Origin: Nitrospira sp.
GTDB taxonomy: Bacteria; Nitrospirota; Nitrospiria; Nitrospirales; Nitrospiraceae
Length of the DNA: 64,000 nt
Assembly: GCA_030123565.1 (NCBI GenBank)
Contig: CP126122.1
Span: forward strand, 4,354,800-4,418,799
Direction of reading: 5' to 3'
The notes beneath the pieces were generated by a model, which searched no databases, was not told where the DNA came from, and saw nothing but the letters and a program-made list of their open reading frames with translations. A program made the position numbers and the translations under genes. This document shows positions 11,782-21,582 of this stretch, one piece after another; the stretch's first letter is position 1; each line of letters starts with the position of its first letter.

Positions 11782-14700
11782 TCAGGAATTGGCGGCCTTC
11801 GGTCGCCGGAGGAGCCAGGTTTCAATGATGGCCTGGAGATCCTTGGAGCGGATCGGTTTGGCCACATAGTCATCCATCCCTGCGGCGAGGCACCGCTCGC
11901 GATCTCCCTGCAGGGCGTTGGCCGTCATGGCGATGATGGGAATGCGCCCCGCCGGGCGGGGCGCATCGTTCGTCGCTCGTGAACCGTCTCTCGTAAGGGG
12001 ATCGAACGCTTCACGCTTCACGAGGCCCGCTTCACGTTCTCTGATGAGGCGCGTGGCTTCGAACCCGTCCATCTCGGGCATCTGGCAGTCCATGAAGATC
12101 AGCGGATAGGGCGAGCGTTCATGGGCCGCCACCGCCTCCTGGCCGTTGCCCGCCACATCCACCCGGTACCCGAGTTTTTCCAGCATCTTGATCGCAACTT
12201 TCTGATTGACGAGATTGTCCTCCACCAGCAGCAATCGCGCCGTAGGCGAAGGTTGGGCTTCGATCGGCGTCTGGCGCGTCATCAGGGGCGGCGTGTCGGT
12301 CACGTCCGGTGCTCCGGCCGTGATGGGGTTGCCCAACAACAGGCAGAGGCAGTCGAGTAATTGTGTCTGGCGTAGCGGCTTGGTCAGGTAGGCATCGATG
12401 CCGATGGCCTGCGCCCTTGCGTCGGCGCCCCGTCGGCCGACGGGGGTGAGGATCACCAGGCGCAGCGCGGCGGTTGTTCGGTCCTGCTTGAGCAGGGCGG
12501 CCGTTTCGAACCCGTCCATTTCAGGCAGGTGCAATTCGATCAGGGCAAGGCCGAAGGGCCTGCGCAGGGCTGCGGCAACATGTGCCATCTCGACGGCTTG
12601 GGTTCCGTTTGCAGCACAGGCACAGTCCATTCCATGCGCCGCGAGCTGTTGGTGCAAGGCACTTCTCACCCTGTGGTTCTGTGCCACGAGAAGAATGCGT
12701 TGCCCGAGGAGCCGACGCCGGGAGATCGTGGGAAGTGGTGCGGTGACGGCCGGCTTCGGCAGTCGTGCCGTAAACCAGAAGGTACTGCCCTGTCCTGGCC
12801 GGCTCTCGATTCCGATCCGGCCCTGCATCTGTGTGACCAAGCGTTCGCAAATGGCAAGCCCCAGCCCGGTGCCGCCGTAGCGCCTGGTGGTCGAGCTGTC
12901 GGCCTGGACGAAGGCTTCGAACAGGCGCGTCTGGGCTTCTTGTGGAATGCCGATCCCCGTATCGGTAATGGTAAACCGCAACAGATCCGAACCGTCCTGC
13001 TCGTCACGGGTGACGTGGAGAAAGACTTCCCCTGCGGAAGTGAATTTAATGGCGTTGCCGACCAGATTGACCAGGATTTGCCGGAGCCGGCCGGGATCGC
13101 CGAGGACACAGGTCGGGACGGCGGCATCGACGAGCCCGATCAACTCAAGGCCCTTGCCCTGTGCCTGTTCCGCGAGGAGGTCCAGCACGTCTTCGACGGT
13201 CGTCCGAAGCTCGAAGGCGATCTCCTCAAAATGAAGTTTGCCGGCCTCGATCTTCGAGAAATCGAGAATGTCGTTGACCAGCGTCAGCAGGGCGTCGCCC
13301 GAAGAGCGGACCGTATTCGCGAATTCTCGTTGGTCTTCCGTGAGGGTGGTCTCCAGCAACAGGCCGGTCATGCCGATGATCGCATTCATCGGCGTGCGGA
13401 TTTCGTGGCTCATGGTGGCGAGGAAGTCGGCCTTGAGTCGGACGGCGCGGAGCGCTTCATCCCGCGCCTGGGCGAGTTCGATGTTCTTCTGCTCCAACTC
13501 GCGGGCGGCACGGGCGAGCGCCGCTTCGGCTTCCTTCCGTCGGGTCACATCCTTTCCCACCGCAAGGAACCCGACAATGCCTCCGTTCTCGTTGCGCAGG
13601 GCGGTGACGGTGACTGAGACCGTCAGATGGCTGCCGTCCTTTCTTCGGTACGTCCATTCCCGTTCGTCATAACCCCCCTGTTTCGCATGCTCGACGAAGA
13701 CCGCGAAGCCGTGGACGGGGCGTCCGTACAACTCAGTGAGTTGTCGGCTACGCTGTTCCACCTCGGCAGGGAGGTGCAGAATGTTGAGAGAATGTTTCCC
13801 GAGCAACTCCTCGGCGGAGTACCCGAGCAGTTCCTCCGCGCCTTTGTTGAAGGTCGTCATCATGCCGGTCGTATCGGTGGCAATGACGGAAAATCGCGTG
13901 GCTGCATCGAGGATGGCCGTCAATTGCCTGTTGGCCGACAGCAGGGCCTGTTCCAGATACTTGCGGGTGGTGACATCCGTGACGATGCGTTGAATCGCCG
14001 GTCGTCCCTCGAAGGTGATCGGCGCCGCCGCAATTTCGATGTCGATGACGGTGCCGTCGAGCCGGACGAATCGCTCTTCCATCGACGGAAGCGCTTCGCC
14101 GGTCGCGGTAAGGTCGGCGAGGCGTGCCTGGAAACGAGGACGCGACTCCGGCGGAACCAGTGAAAAGAAGTCCCGTTTCAACAATTCCGAAGGCGCCGAT
14201 GCGCGGACGAGGTTCAGGCAAGCCTGATTGGCGTACACGATGATCCCGTCGCAGGTCACCAGGACCGCGTTCGGCGACAGCTCGACGAGTGAGCGGTAAC
14301 GTGCCTCGCTGTTCCGAAGGGCTTCCGCCATCCGTTTAGTGGCGGTGATGTCTTCGGCGATGCCGGCGAACCGGTACACATTACCCGAAGCGTCCCTGAT
14401 CGGGAAGCATCGGTCGCGAATCCATCGTATCGATCCGTCGGGCCGGACGATACGATATTCCTCATCGTAGAGGAGCGTCGCCTGGCAGGCAGCTGCGGTT
14501 TCCACCCGGTTTCGATCATCGGGATGCACGCAGGCCATCCAGATTTCAGGACTCTCGTACAGATCGCGCCGTGGCCTCCCCCAAATCGAATCAAACGCAG
14601 GACTGACATAGATCAGGTTCGTCTTGTCGGCCGTCACGAGCCAGAACACTGCATTGATGTGCTCTGCCAGCTGGCGGAACCGCTCTTCGCTTTGCTGGAG

Positions 14701-15282
14701 ACCGACCTCCATCCGTCTCCGTTCAGAAATATCCCGGCATGTACAGATCAATAGGCCGCGCTCCTCCGCTCCCTCAGGCAAGATACGGAGAGAAACTTCT
14801 ACATCGAACGCGGTTCCGTCCTGTCGCCGTCCGACCAGTTCGCCCTGCCAAAATGGTTTTCCTGAGAGCGCTGGAACGCACTGCTGCTCGATATAGGCTG
14901 CGTGTTCTCGGTCGTACAGCAACTTCCAACTCTTCCCTAGCAGTTCCGGCGCGGAGTATCCGTAGATCTGTGCATGGGCGTCATTCATATAGACAAACCT
15001 GCCGGATTCGTCCAGAAGCGCGAGTCCTTCCATGCTGTGGTCGACTGCGAACTCGAGTCGTCGGCGAGCCTGCTCCGCTTGTTTGCGTTCGGTGACGTCC
15101 AAGACGGTTCCGGCCATTTTCATGGGTCGGCCGTCACTGTCCCGAATGACCATCCCGCGACAGTGGACATGGCGAACTTCGCCGGTCGGACGGATGATGC
15201 GGCACTCGACGCTATAGGGTGTACGGCCGTCCAGCGCTGCGGCGACCGCGGCCAGGACCTGTGCCTTGTCGTCCGCGTGCAA
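11782..15282 (-). CDS. Hybrid histidine kinase, C-terminal part of an amber-split gene
   Basis: 1166 codons from a TTG, the first plausible start after an in-frame TAG at 15346-15348. It contains at least four PAS/PAC units (for example DHSMEGLALLDESGRFVYMN and AILDAATRFSVIATDTTG), HisKA (ATMSHEIRTPMNAIIG), HATPase_c (LVNLVGNAIKFT, DTGIGIP, GTGLGLAICERLV) and two receivers. REC1 is degenerate: LLVAQN replaces the acidic pair and ALIELHLPEMDG has Glu at the phospho-acceptor position. REC2 is intact (LLVEDNLVN, FMDCQMPEMDG, YVAKPI) but carries a repeat-derived insertion of about 28 residues. Without the stop the full protein would be about 1640 residues. Either a pseudogene, a readthrough product, or a separately started kinase lacking its sensor half. 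Confidence 0.75.
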   Translation of the reverse strand: MHADDKAQVLAAVAAALDGRTPYSVECRIIRPTGEVRHVHCRGMVIRDSDGRPMKMAGTVLDVTERKQAEQARRRLEFAVDHSMEGLALLDESGRFVYMNDAHAQIYGYSAPELLGKSWKLLYDREHAAYIEQQCVPALSGKPFWQGELVGRRQDGTAFDVEVSLRILPEGAEERGLLICTCRDISERRRMEVGLQQSEERFRQLAEHINAVFWLVTADKTNLIYVSPAFDSIWGRPRRDLYESPEIWMACVHPDDRNRVETAAACQATLLYDEEYRIVRPDGSIRWIRDRCFPIRDASGNVYRFAGIAEDITATKRMAEALRNSEARYRSLVELSPNAVLVTCDGIIVYANQACLNLVRASAPSELLKRDFFSLVPPESRPRFQARLADLTATGEALPSMEERFVRLDGTVIDIEIAAAPITFEGRPAIQRIVTDVTTRKYLEQALLSANRQLTAILDAATRFSVIATDTTGMMTTFNKGAEELLGYSAEELLGKHSLNILHLPAEVEQRSRQLTELYGRPVHGFAVFVEHAKQGGYDEREWTYRRKDGSHLTVSVTVTALRNENGGIVGFLAVGKDVTRRKEAEAALARAARELEQKNIELAQARDEALRAVRLKADFLATMSHEIRTPMNAIIGMTGLLLETTLTEDQREFANTVRSSGDALLTLVNDILDFSKIEAGKLHFEEIAFELRTTVEDVLDLLAEQAQGKGLELIGLVDAAVPTCVLGDPGRLRQILVNLVGNAIKFTSAGEVFLHVTRDEQDGSDLLRFTITDTGIGIPQEAQTRLFEAFVQADSSTTRRYGGTGLGLAICERLVTQMQGRIGIESRPGQGSTFWFTARLPKPAVTAPLPTISRRRLLGQRILLVAQNHRVRSALHQQLAAHGMDCACAANGTQAVEMAHVAAALRRPFGLALIELHLPEMDGFETAALLKQDRTTAALRLVILTPVGRRGADARAQAIGIDAYLTKPLRQTQLLDCLCLLLGNPITAGAPDVTDTPPLMTRQTPIEAQPSPTARLLLVEDNLVNQKVAIKMLEKLGYRVDVAGNGQEAVAAHERSPYPLIFMDCQMPEMDGFEATRLIREREAGLVKREAFDPLTRDGSRATNDAPRPAGRIPIIAMTANALQGDRERCLAAGMDDYVAKPIRSKDLQAIIETWLLRRPKAANS
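11942..12036 (-). repeat. Palindrome plus heptamer repeat inserted in frame in receiver domain
   Basis: Inside the REC2 coding sequence lies a perfect palindrome with 12-bp arms (ATGCGCCCCGCC at 11942-11953 and GGCGGGGCGCAT at 11955-11966). Next comes CGTTCGTCGCTCGTGAA (11967-11983), shared with the nuoG-nuoF spacer at 44171, and then CTTCACG heptamers (12007-12024 and 12028-12036). It encodes roughly AGLVKREAFDPLTRDGSR and ATNDAPRPAG between the helix ending LIRERE and the strand RIPIIAMTAN, where normal receivers have no insert. Confidence 0.65.
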
Positions 15283-15345
15283 TGCATTGAGAAAGGTATC
15301 GTAGCAAGGAACGACGCCGCCCGGCTCGAAGCCGAAAATCCGGTA

Positions 15346-21434: not shown

Positions 21435-21448
21435 CATGTCAAGACATG
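21435..21448. promoter_or_regulatory. Palindrome CATGTC-AA-GACATG upstream of luxR-type gene
   Basis: Two perfect 6-bp half-sites separated by 2 bases, 42 bases upstream of the regulator's ATG. Suitable as an autoregulatory site for a dimeric HTH protein; unproven. Confidence 0.4.
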
Positions 21449-21534
21449 AAGGTTTACCGGTTCGCACGTGGTCCATGCTCGGGCAGCCATGACTAGAGAA
21501 CCGGTGGATTGTACCGCCCGGTGACGGGCCGTAT

Positions 21535-21582
21535 CTAGGGTCATTCAACCCTAGTATAGAGTGCCTAGGGTGTGAACCGCAA
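21535..21582 (-). promoter_or_regulatory. Candidate luxR-type promoter with three CTAGGGT half-sites
   Basis: On the minus strand, TTGCGG (21577-21582) and TATACT (21553-21558) are separated by 18 bases, a plausible sigma-70 promoter. Three copies of a 7-base half-site sit on it: CTAGGGT at 21535-21541 and 21565-21571, and its complement ACCCTAG at 21548-21554. One lies between the -35 and -10, one overlaps the -10 and one lies just downstream, an arrangement expected of a repressor or autoregulator. Confidence 0.45.

Follow-up and report, generated by a model that had tools for sequence, protein, structure and literature searches.

We analyzed a 64,000-nucleotide stretch (the window) of the 4.62-Mb single-contig genome of a Nitrospira sp., positions 4354800-4418799, and found in it a conserved three-gene module composed of a LuxR-type regulator without a LuxI partner, a 423-aa nitroreductase-like protein (NTR) and a FabF-like ketosynthase (KS). 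Our reading, to which we assign a probability of about 0.55, is that in this Nitrospiraceae module a LuxR that does not sense N-acyl-homoserine lactones (AHLs) activates an NTR-KS operon, the product of which is plausibly the ligand of the same LuxR. The original prediction, made from the letters of the window, had joined five genes into one system by adding a NarL-type response regulator (RR) and a giant PAS/GAF hybrid histidine kinase (HK). The coordinates bear out that the five genes follow one another in the order LuxR, NTR, KS, RR and HK, all on the minus strand. Only LuxR, NTR and KS form the unit, and RR and HK lie outside it.

The LuxR gene (20596-21393, minus strand) encodes 265 aa with the Pfam domains Autoind_bind (2.4e-11) and GerE (2.2e-20). 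It is separated by 214 bp from the NTR gene (19110-20381, minus strand), whose product carries a conserved C-terminal extension and belongs to a family without a name, and a further 41 bp separate NTR from KS (17743-19068, minus strand). One possible KS start, TTG 19113, overlaps NTR. Because a stop codon stands at KS residue 9 or 10 in three relatives, ATG 19068, 41 bp past NTR, is the likely start.

We searched for KS, LuxR and NTR in 167 sampled Nitrospiraceae genomes, taken as one and the same sample (G and L numbers are our labels for sampled genomes and loci). KS orthologues (E up to 1e-120) were present in 44 genomes, and full-length NTR orthologues in the identical 44; two extra NTR matches came from G009, where a contig end cuts the gene, and from G030, which holds a paralogue only. 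LuxR (E<=1e-30) was found in 48 genomes, comprising these 44, two with the match at a contig end (G007 and G009) and two with only 36% and 34% identity (G285 and G363, respectively). The gap between NTR and KS was at most 66 bp in all 44 module genomes, and LuxR lay less than 0.6 kb from NTR in 36 of them and less than 2.1 kb in 43. The exception is G016, whose best LuxR match is on a different contig and in which a LuxR fragment stands upstream of NTR. The proposed tie between the LuxR solo, KS and the 423-residue protein is thus strongly supported, both by this shared set of genomes and by the conserved lux-box-like operator described below, and the scattering of genes in relatives, which the original prediction had named as speaking against it, was not seen for these three.

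Since 26 of the 44 module genomes belong to the genus of the window, independent gains and losses must be fewer than 44. The module also occurs in five further genera, and the genera g6 and g21 hold members with and without it. The named relatives that carry NTR are nearly all Nitrospira, including Candidatus Nitrospira defluvii FP929003. A profile search of 295 Nitrospirota genomes detected NTR relatives outside Nitrospiraceae only in G177 and G301, and the stretches that we read there contained no LuxR or KS match. Across 25 loci and the window, pairwise distances of LuxR, NTR and KS correlated with one another at r = 0.95-0.98 and with those of uvrC at 0.92-0.96; the distances of the module genes track each other, and uvrC nearly as well, so there is no sign of shuffling within the module.

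The LuxR-NTR intergenic region contains a lux-box-like dyad, ACCTACCC-N4-GGGTAGGT, which reads GCCTACCC-CGAT-GGGTAGGT in the window (20510-20529, minus strand). When the window was aligned with 23 loci of its genus (24 rows), 18 of the 20 dyad columns were invariant, compared with 37 of 245 other intergenic columns. At the other loci of the family, the arms CCTACCC and GGGTAGG were kept around a variable 4-bp centre, and only the dyad of G208 (L121) was degenerate. We then searched for the exact 18-bp core CCTACCC-N4-GGGTAGG in the 44 module genomes and in 22 module-free ones (66 in all) and found it in 43 of the former and none of the latter. Each of the 43 genomes, that of the window included, carried one site, apart from G195, which carried two at its two module copies, and every site stood upstream of NTR; with the pattern reversed as a control, two of the 66 genomes had a single site each. 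A regulon of a single site is therefore predicted, for the exact core pattern only.

The position of the dyad relative to the NTR promoter is equally fixed. A TAnnnT motif starts exactly 22 nt past the dyad core at 43 of 44 sites and 23 nt past it in G277, compared with a single match in total at the remaining offsets from 12 to 35 nt. In the window this motif is the candidate -10 element TACAGT (20483-20488, minus strand), and the same hexamer occurs 22 nt past the degenerate right half-site of L121. When positions are counted from the conserved TAnnnT and +1 is assumed to lie 7 nt past the -10 element, the dyad is centred at about -43.5. The classical lux box is centred at -42.5. By its sequence and placement, the 20-bp dyad would accordingly be classed as a lux box, that is, an operator of the LuxR-family type near -42 of its target promoter. 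We infer that the module LuxR binds it, and the conservation argues strongly for a regulatory link from LuxR through the dyad to NTR-KS.

Two other roles for the dyad were considered and rejected. A scan of 16600-21900 found no terminator, and the spacing to the -10-like element is fixed at 22 nt, which speaks against an intrinsic terminator of luxR. NarL recognizes 7-2-7 sites; the inner spacing of the dyad is 4 rather than 6, and the dyad persists where an RR orthologue is absent. In some lineages the palindrome arms extend to 13-21 bp, with outer sequence that differs between lineages; at L130:2401 and upstream of NTR in L133, the dyad lies inside perfect palindromes with arms of up to 21 bp. 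A candidate luxR promoter, TTGCGG ... TATACT (21553-21582, minus strand), is suggested by a conserved block upstream of the gene, and 18 of 23 genus loci match a loose version of this pattern. A promoter scan of 16600-21900 returned one match, compared with 1.2 in shuffled sequences, and picked up neither the proposed luxR promoter nor the proposed NTR promoter, the -35 parts of which are off consensus.

The original prediction also described the regulator as a LuxR with an autoinducer-type domain but no LuxI, and both parts hold. Besides the two LuxR domains given above, we found no match to PF00765 (LuxI) in the genome of the window or in any genome of its genus among the 167 family genomes; 25 genus genomes were individually free of a match, and the 87 family genomes that do match serve as a positive control. 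The AHL site of the window LuxR reads F-Y-D-P-S-G, compared with W-Y-D-P-W-G in AHL receptors, so by sequence this protein would not be counted among receptors with the six-residue WYDPWG signature. Our alignment of module LuxRs had 43 rows and covered 42 of the 44 genomes (G195 contributed two, and G014 and G277 were missed by the open reading frame step), with position 85 placed through an RhlR-guided alignment. Site 57 was F, L, H or M and site 85 was S in all 43; Trp57 and Trp85 were therefore missing throughout, whereas both were kept in four LuxRs that lie beside LuxI. LuxR had no plasmid match at 1e-25. Outside the genus, 8 of 18 module genomes contain LuxI, in 3 of them on other contigs, compared with 79 of 123 module-free genomes; because module-free genomes have it at least as often, LuxI is not part of the module.

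Published observations bear on this absence in different ways; here and below, what we attribute to the literature rests on the passages of each paper that we read. The report that N. defluvii and strain ND1 lack LuxI (PMC5767232) agrees with our result, whereas a description of AHL sensing in lineage I N. defluvii, partly from a metagenomic clone (PMC8553950), disagrees with it. A 2025 comparative study of Nitrospirales noted LuxR homologues without LuxI in many lineage I genomes and left their response to foreign AHLs unclear (PMC12342949). PMC4338825 lists an N. defluvii LuxR solo, D8PAV3, in which W57 is changed to F and W85 falls in a gap, and suggests a non-AHL ligand for this protein. 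Its F-Y-D-P motif and the gap at W85 indicate that D8PAV3 is probably the orthologue of the window LuxR, although the published table gives Cys where our alignment has Gly. The passages on D8PAV3 in that paper mention neither NTR-KS neighbours nor an operator or a family-wide linkage.

KS is FabF-like in sequence (for example, 4ls5 matches at E 5e-97). It scored 429 bits against the NCBIfam fabF equivalog TIGR03150, for which 494 are needed, and passed the looser subfamily NF005589 (426 versus 387 bits). Counted from TTG 19113, KS keeps Cys182, Lys355 and His360, whereas Cys323 (codon 18145-18147) stands in place of the first catalytic His. The Cys-Cys-His arrangement, together with a Leu two residues past Cys323, was present in 44 of 44 KSs (43 loci and the window). 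KS thus lacks the Cys-His-His triad of an elongating FabF. Compared with E. coli FabF (KASII), it retains the active Cys, the Lys and the second His and has Cys at the position of His303; in FabF, that residue and His340 are in contact with the acyl carbonyl (PMC7138838). With the first catalytic His gone, KS may carry out acyl transfer or condense in an unusual way. Among the papers listed by literature searches on altered ketosynthase active sites, there was no precedent for Cys at this position. The original prediction had named a KS that is the only FabF of the genome as an outcome that would speak against it. This is not the case, as two FabF-like paralogues were found, one in the order fabG-acpP-fabF-rnc and one beside an acyl carrier protein gene (labels assigned by eye), and both keep Cys-His-His and have Thr at the Leu position. 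In the module-free genome G285 (L135:6766-8776), the LuxR that is 36% identical to ours is followed after about 46 bp by a KS-like protein and then by a kinase-like gene; judged by eye, this KS-like protein lacks the active-site Cys and the first His and is possibly a non-catalytic variant.

The label "nitroreductase-like" is weakly supported. NTR of the window matches no Pfam or NCBIfam family, and its relatives match PF00881 below the cut-off: with E allowed up to 10, matches came from 4 of the 15 aligned members and none from the window protein, and the best score in a relative was 18.2 bits, compared with a gathering score of 23.5. A profile of the NTR family weakly matched the nitroreductases 4g8s and 4dn2 (E 0.013-0.014). 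NTR is probably a flavin-dependent oxidoreductase.

LuxR solos with ketosynthase-made ligands are already known. In Photorhabdus, PluR/PpyS and PauR/DarABC share with our module a LuxR without LuxI and an altered AHL site, and the non-AHL ligands of PluR and PauR are made by ketosynthase-type enzymes (PMC4414361). The motifs at the AHL site are TYDQCS and TYDQYI in PluR and PauR (PMC4414361), compared with FYDPSG in the module LuxR, and the module is further distinguished by a FabF-like KS with a His-to-Cys change, by the adjoining NTR and by the conserved dyad before NTR-KS. The analogy is one of function and does not demonstrate that the module belongs with these systems. The closest parallel to the operator is the lux box of NspR1, a Nitrospira AHL regulator, ACCTGGCGGTTCCGCCAGGT, which was tested by electrophoretic mobility shift assay (PMC8553950). 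It and the module dyad are both 20 bp long, have an 8-4-8 layout and share the outer ACCT..AGGT, whereas the inner half-sites of the module dyad, ACCC/GGGT, are unlike those of the NspR1 box. NspR1 is paired with the LuxI protein NspI (PMC8553950), in contrast to the module LuxR, which lacks both Trp residues and occurs in a genus without a LuxI match. Our literature search, which left subscription journals mostly outside its reach, returned no paper that, judged by its listing, describes a Nitrospira LuxR clustered with a ketosynthase or a nitroreductase.

Overall, after combining these data, we propose a putative mechanism for the module. LuxR, with a pocket unlike that of AHL receptors, would bind the one lux-box-like dyad at the -35 position and, once bound, would recruit RNA polymerase to the NTR-KS operon. 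KS would load an acyl chain and then transfer or condense it, NTR would alter the redox state of the acyl product, and a P450 may decorate this product in many relatives. Most likely the product or a close relative of it would be the ligand of LuxR, which would close a positive loop.

Several observations weigh against this proposal. Of the six AHL-site residues, the module LuxRs retain Tyr, Asp and Pro without exception (43 of 43). In five relatives (G140, G323, G342, G388 and G195, the last with a contig-edge copy), about 1.4 kb separate LuxI from the module, which leaves room for a part played by an AHL. Without its first catalytic His, KS may be incapable of ordinary condensation, and the product need not be polyketide-like. 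The assignment of NTR is weak, and its AlphaFold2 model reached a mean predicted local distance difference test score of 28 (16 near-identical rows, the window and 15 orthologues). Some members of the NTR family have no KS close by, both on plasmids from other phyla and, as a paralogue, within the genome: relatives with 28-35% identity were found on 19 plasmid records, where they are annotated, if at all, as hypothetical protein, none of seven such plasmid neighbourhoods that we read contained a KS match, and a paralogue about 37% identical to NTR (L048:9450-10796) likewise has no KS match nearby. A scan of viral contigs found no NTR relatives. The L048 paralogue is directly preceded by a cupin/anti-sigma-like gene, and a methyltransferase-like gene is found some 6 kb from it (labels assigned by eye). 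Lastly, no P450 gene was found in the 23 N. defluvii-like loci that we read or in the window.

The first two of these observations, and the Gly of the AHL site kept in 42 of 43 module LuxRs, would also fit a LuxR that eavesdrops on an outside signal, an AHL or another molecule, from neighbouring nitrifiers, with NTR-KS making a defence or community metabolite that is not its ligand. The lack of a LuxI match in the genus, when 87 of 167 family genomes have one, points the same way. However, the loss of both Trp residues from every module LuxR, when the LuxRs beside LuxI keep them, is not what such a listener would lead us to expect, and a closed loop would account at least equally well for a one-site regulon situated at the regulator's own enzyme operon. 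We consider eavesdropping unlikely.

The neighbours of the module in relatives raise a different explanation. Among 20 loci that fall outside the N. defluvii-like group, 18 have a P450 gene next to the module (Pfam, run on 4, confirmed those); of these genes, 9 are downstream of KS, 8 between LuxR and NTR and 1 beyond LuxR and more distant; solved relatives of those downstream of KS include PikC and EryF. FadL-like porins lie near the module in 4 of the same 20 loci (Pfam was run on 1). Together with the FabF-like nature of KS and a patchy distribution of the kind seen in accessory metabolism, these neighbours would suit a LuxR that senses an intracellular lipid or redox metabolite, with NTR-KS modifying a lipid or cofactor and no signalling between cells. 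Such a metabolic role is harder to reconcile with a receptor domain of the quorum-sensing type, with a lux-box-type operator and with the LuxI/LuxR genes close by in several relatives, and we regard it as improbable, leaving the self-ligand loop as our preferred reading.

Neither RR nor HK is a core part. RR (16812-17468, minus strand; 17468 is the likely start) and HK (11782-16704, minus strand) are neighbours at the level of the genus, and orthologues of both were found only in the genus of the window and in one near genus, represented by G323. The damaged receiver that the original prediction ascribed to RR was confirmed and proved to be conserved rather than an accident of a single genome: among 24 aligned receivers, the acidic pair is replaced by NP in all 24, Thr by Ala in 23 and Lys by Gln in 23 (L125 has Ser and Arg at the Thr and Lys positions), and the phospho-acceptor Asp is lost in 6. 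In the window the acidic pair, Thr and Lys are replaced and the Asp is kept, so RR lacks the full set of residues of a working phospho-receiver. These degenerate-receiver orthologues were seen only in the genus and in G323. At 17 further relatives outside the genus, 13 nearby regulator genes from 12 loci were aligned, and 12 of these, all except that of G277, keep the acidic pair; identity to the window RR is 27-47% for 12 of the 13, and the other one did not match it. The remaining five loci have regulators 27-28% identical to it in four cases and none that we found in the fifth.

As for HK, a multi-PAS hybrid kinase is indeed present, but its frame is interrupted by an in-frame TAG (15346-15348), possibly a sequencing error. 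HK carries an internal deletion in G006 (L049), the nearest relative, is reduced to its C-terminal part in L045 and has a frame break in G016 (L054), whereas the further genus loci listed have HK frames of 1359-1652 aa. The claim that overlapping ribosome sites couple the last four genes was not confirmed: KS would overlap NTR only if it started at the TTG, KS and RR are separated by about 274 bp and RR and HK by 107 bp, and tight spacing among the five genes is limited to NTR-KS. RR and HK could still be working parts of a five-gene system, given that the order is conserved in most genus loci and in G323 and that many relatives have NarL-type regulator genes of a different kind downstream of the module. 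However, the nearby regulators in the 17 other relatives are not RR orthologues, HK is interrupted, deleted or cut down in the genomes named above, and the KS-RR gap is wide; we therefore hold such a system to be very improbable.

For the window as a whole, an Rfam scan gave no match and ARAGORN found no tRNA. A large patatin-like protein with a GNAT end is encoded at 6834-10811 (minus strand). Its relatives (40-43% identity in pieces) lie near NTR-family genes on two Rhizobiaceae-type plasmids (L081 and L082), with a peroxidase gene between the two in L082, and this proximity hints at a wider link to lipids.

We speculate, at somewhat less than even odds, that the module represents non-AHL quorum sensing in nitrite-oxidising Nitrospira, in which a Cys-Cys-His KS and an NTR-like flavoenzyme would make a new class of signal and a LuxR with a single target lux box would read it; some relatives would add P450 decoration and an adjoining AHL circuit. 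As targets for enzymology, the ketosynthase with its Cys-for-His change and the unnamed NTR family merit attention by themselves. For the question of LuxR without LuxI in lineage I, as raised in PMC12342949, the module supplies concrete elements, namely a receptor, a predicted operator, a promoter geometry and a two-gene operon. Since Nitrospira are key nitrifiers of wastewater plants, a private signal would matter for biofilm formation and for the control of nitrification.

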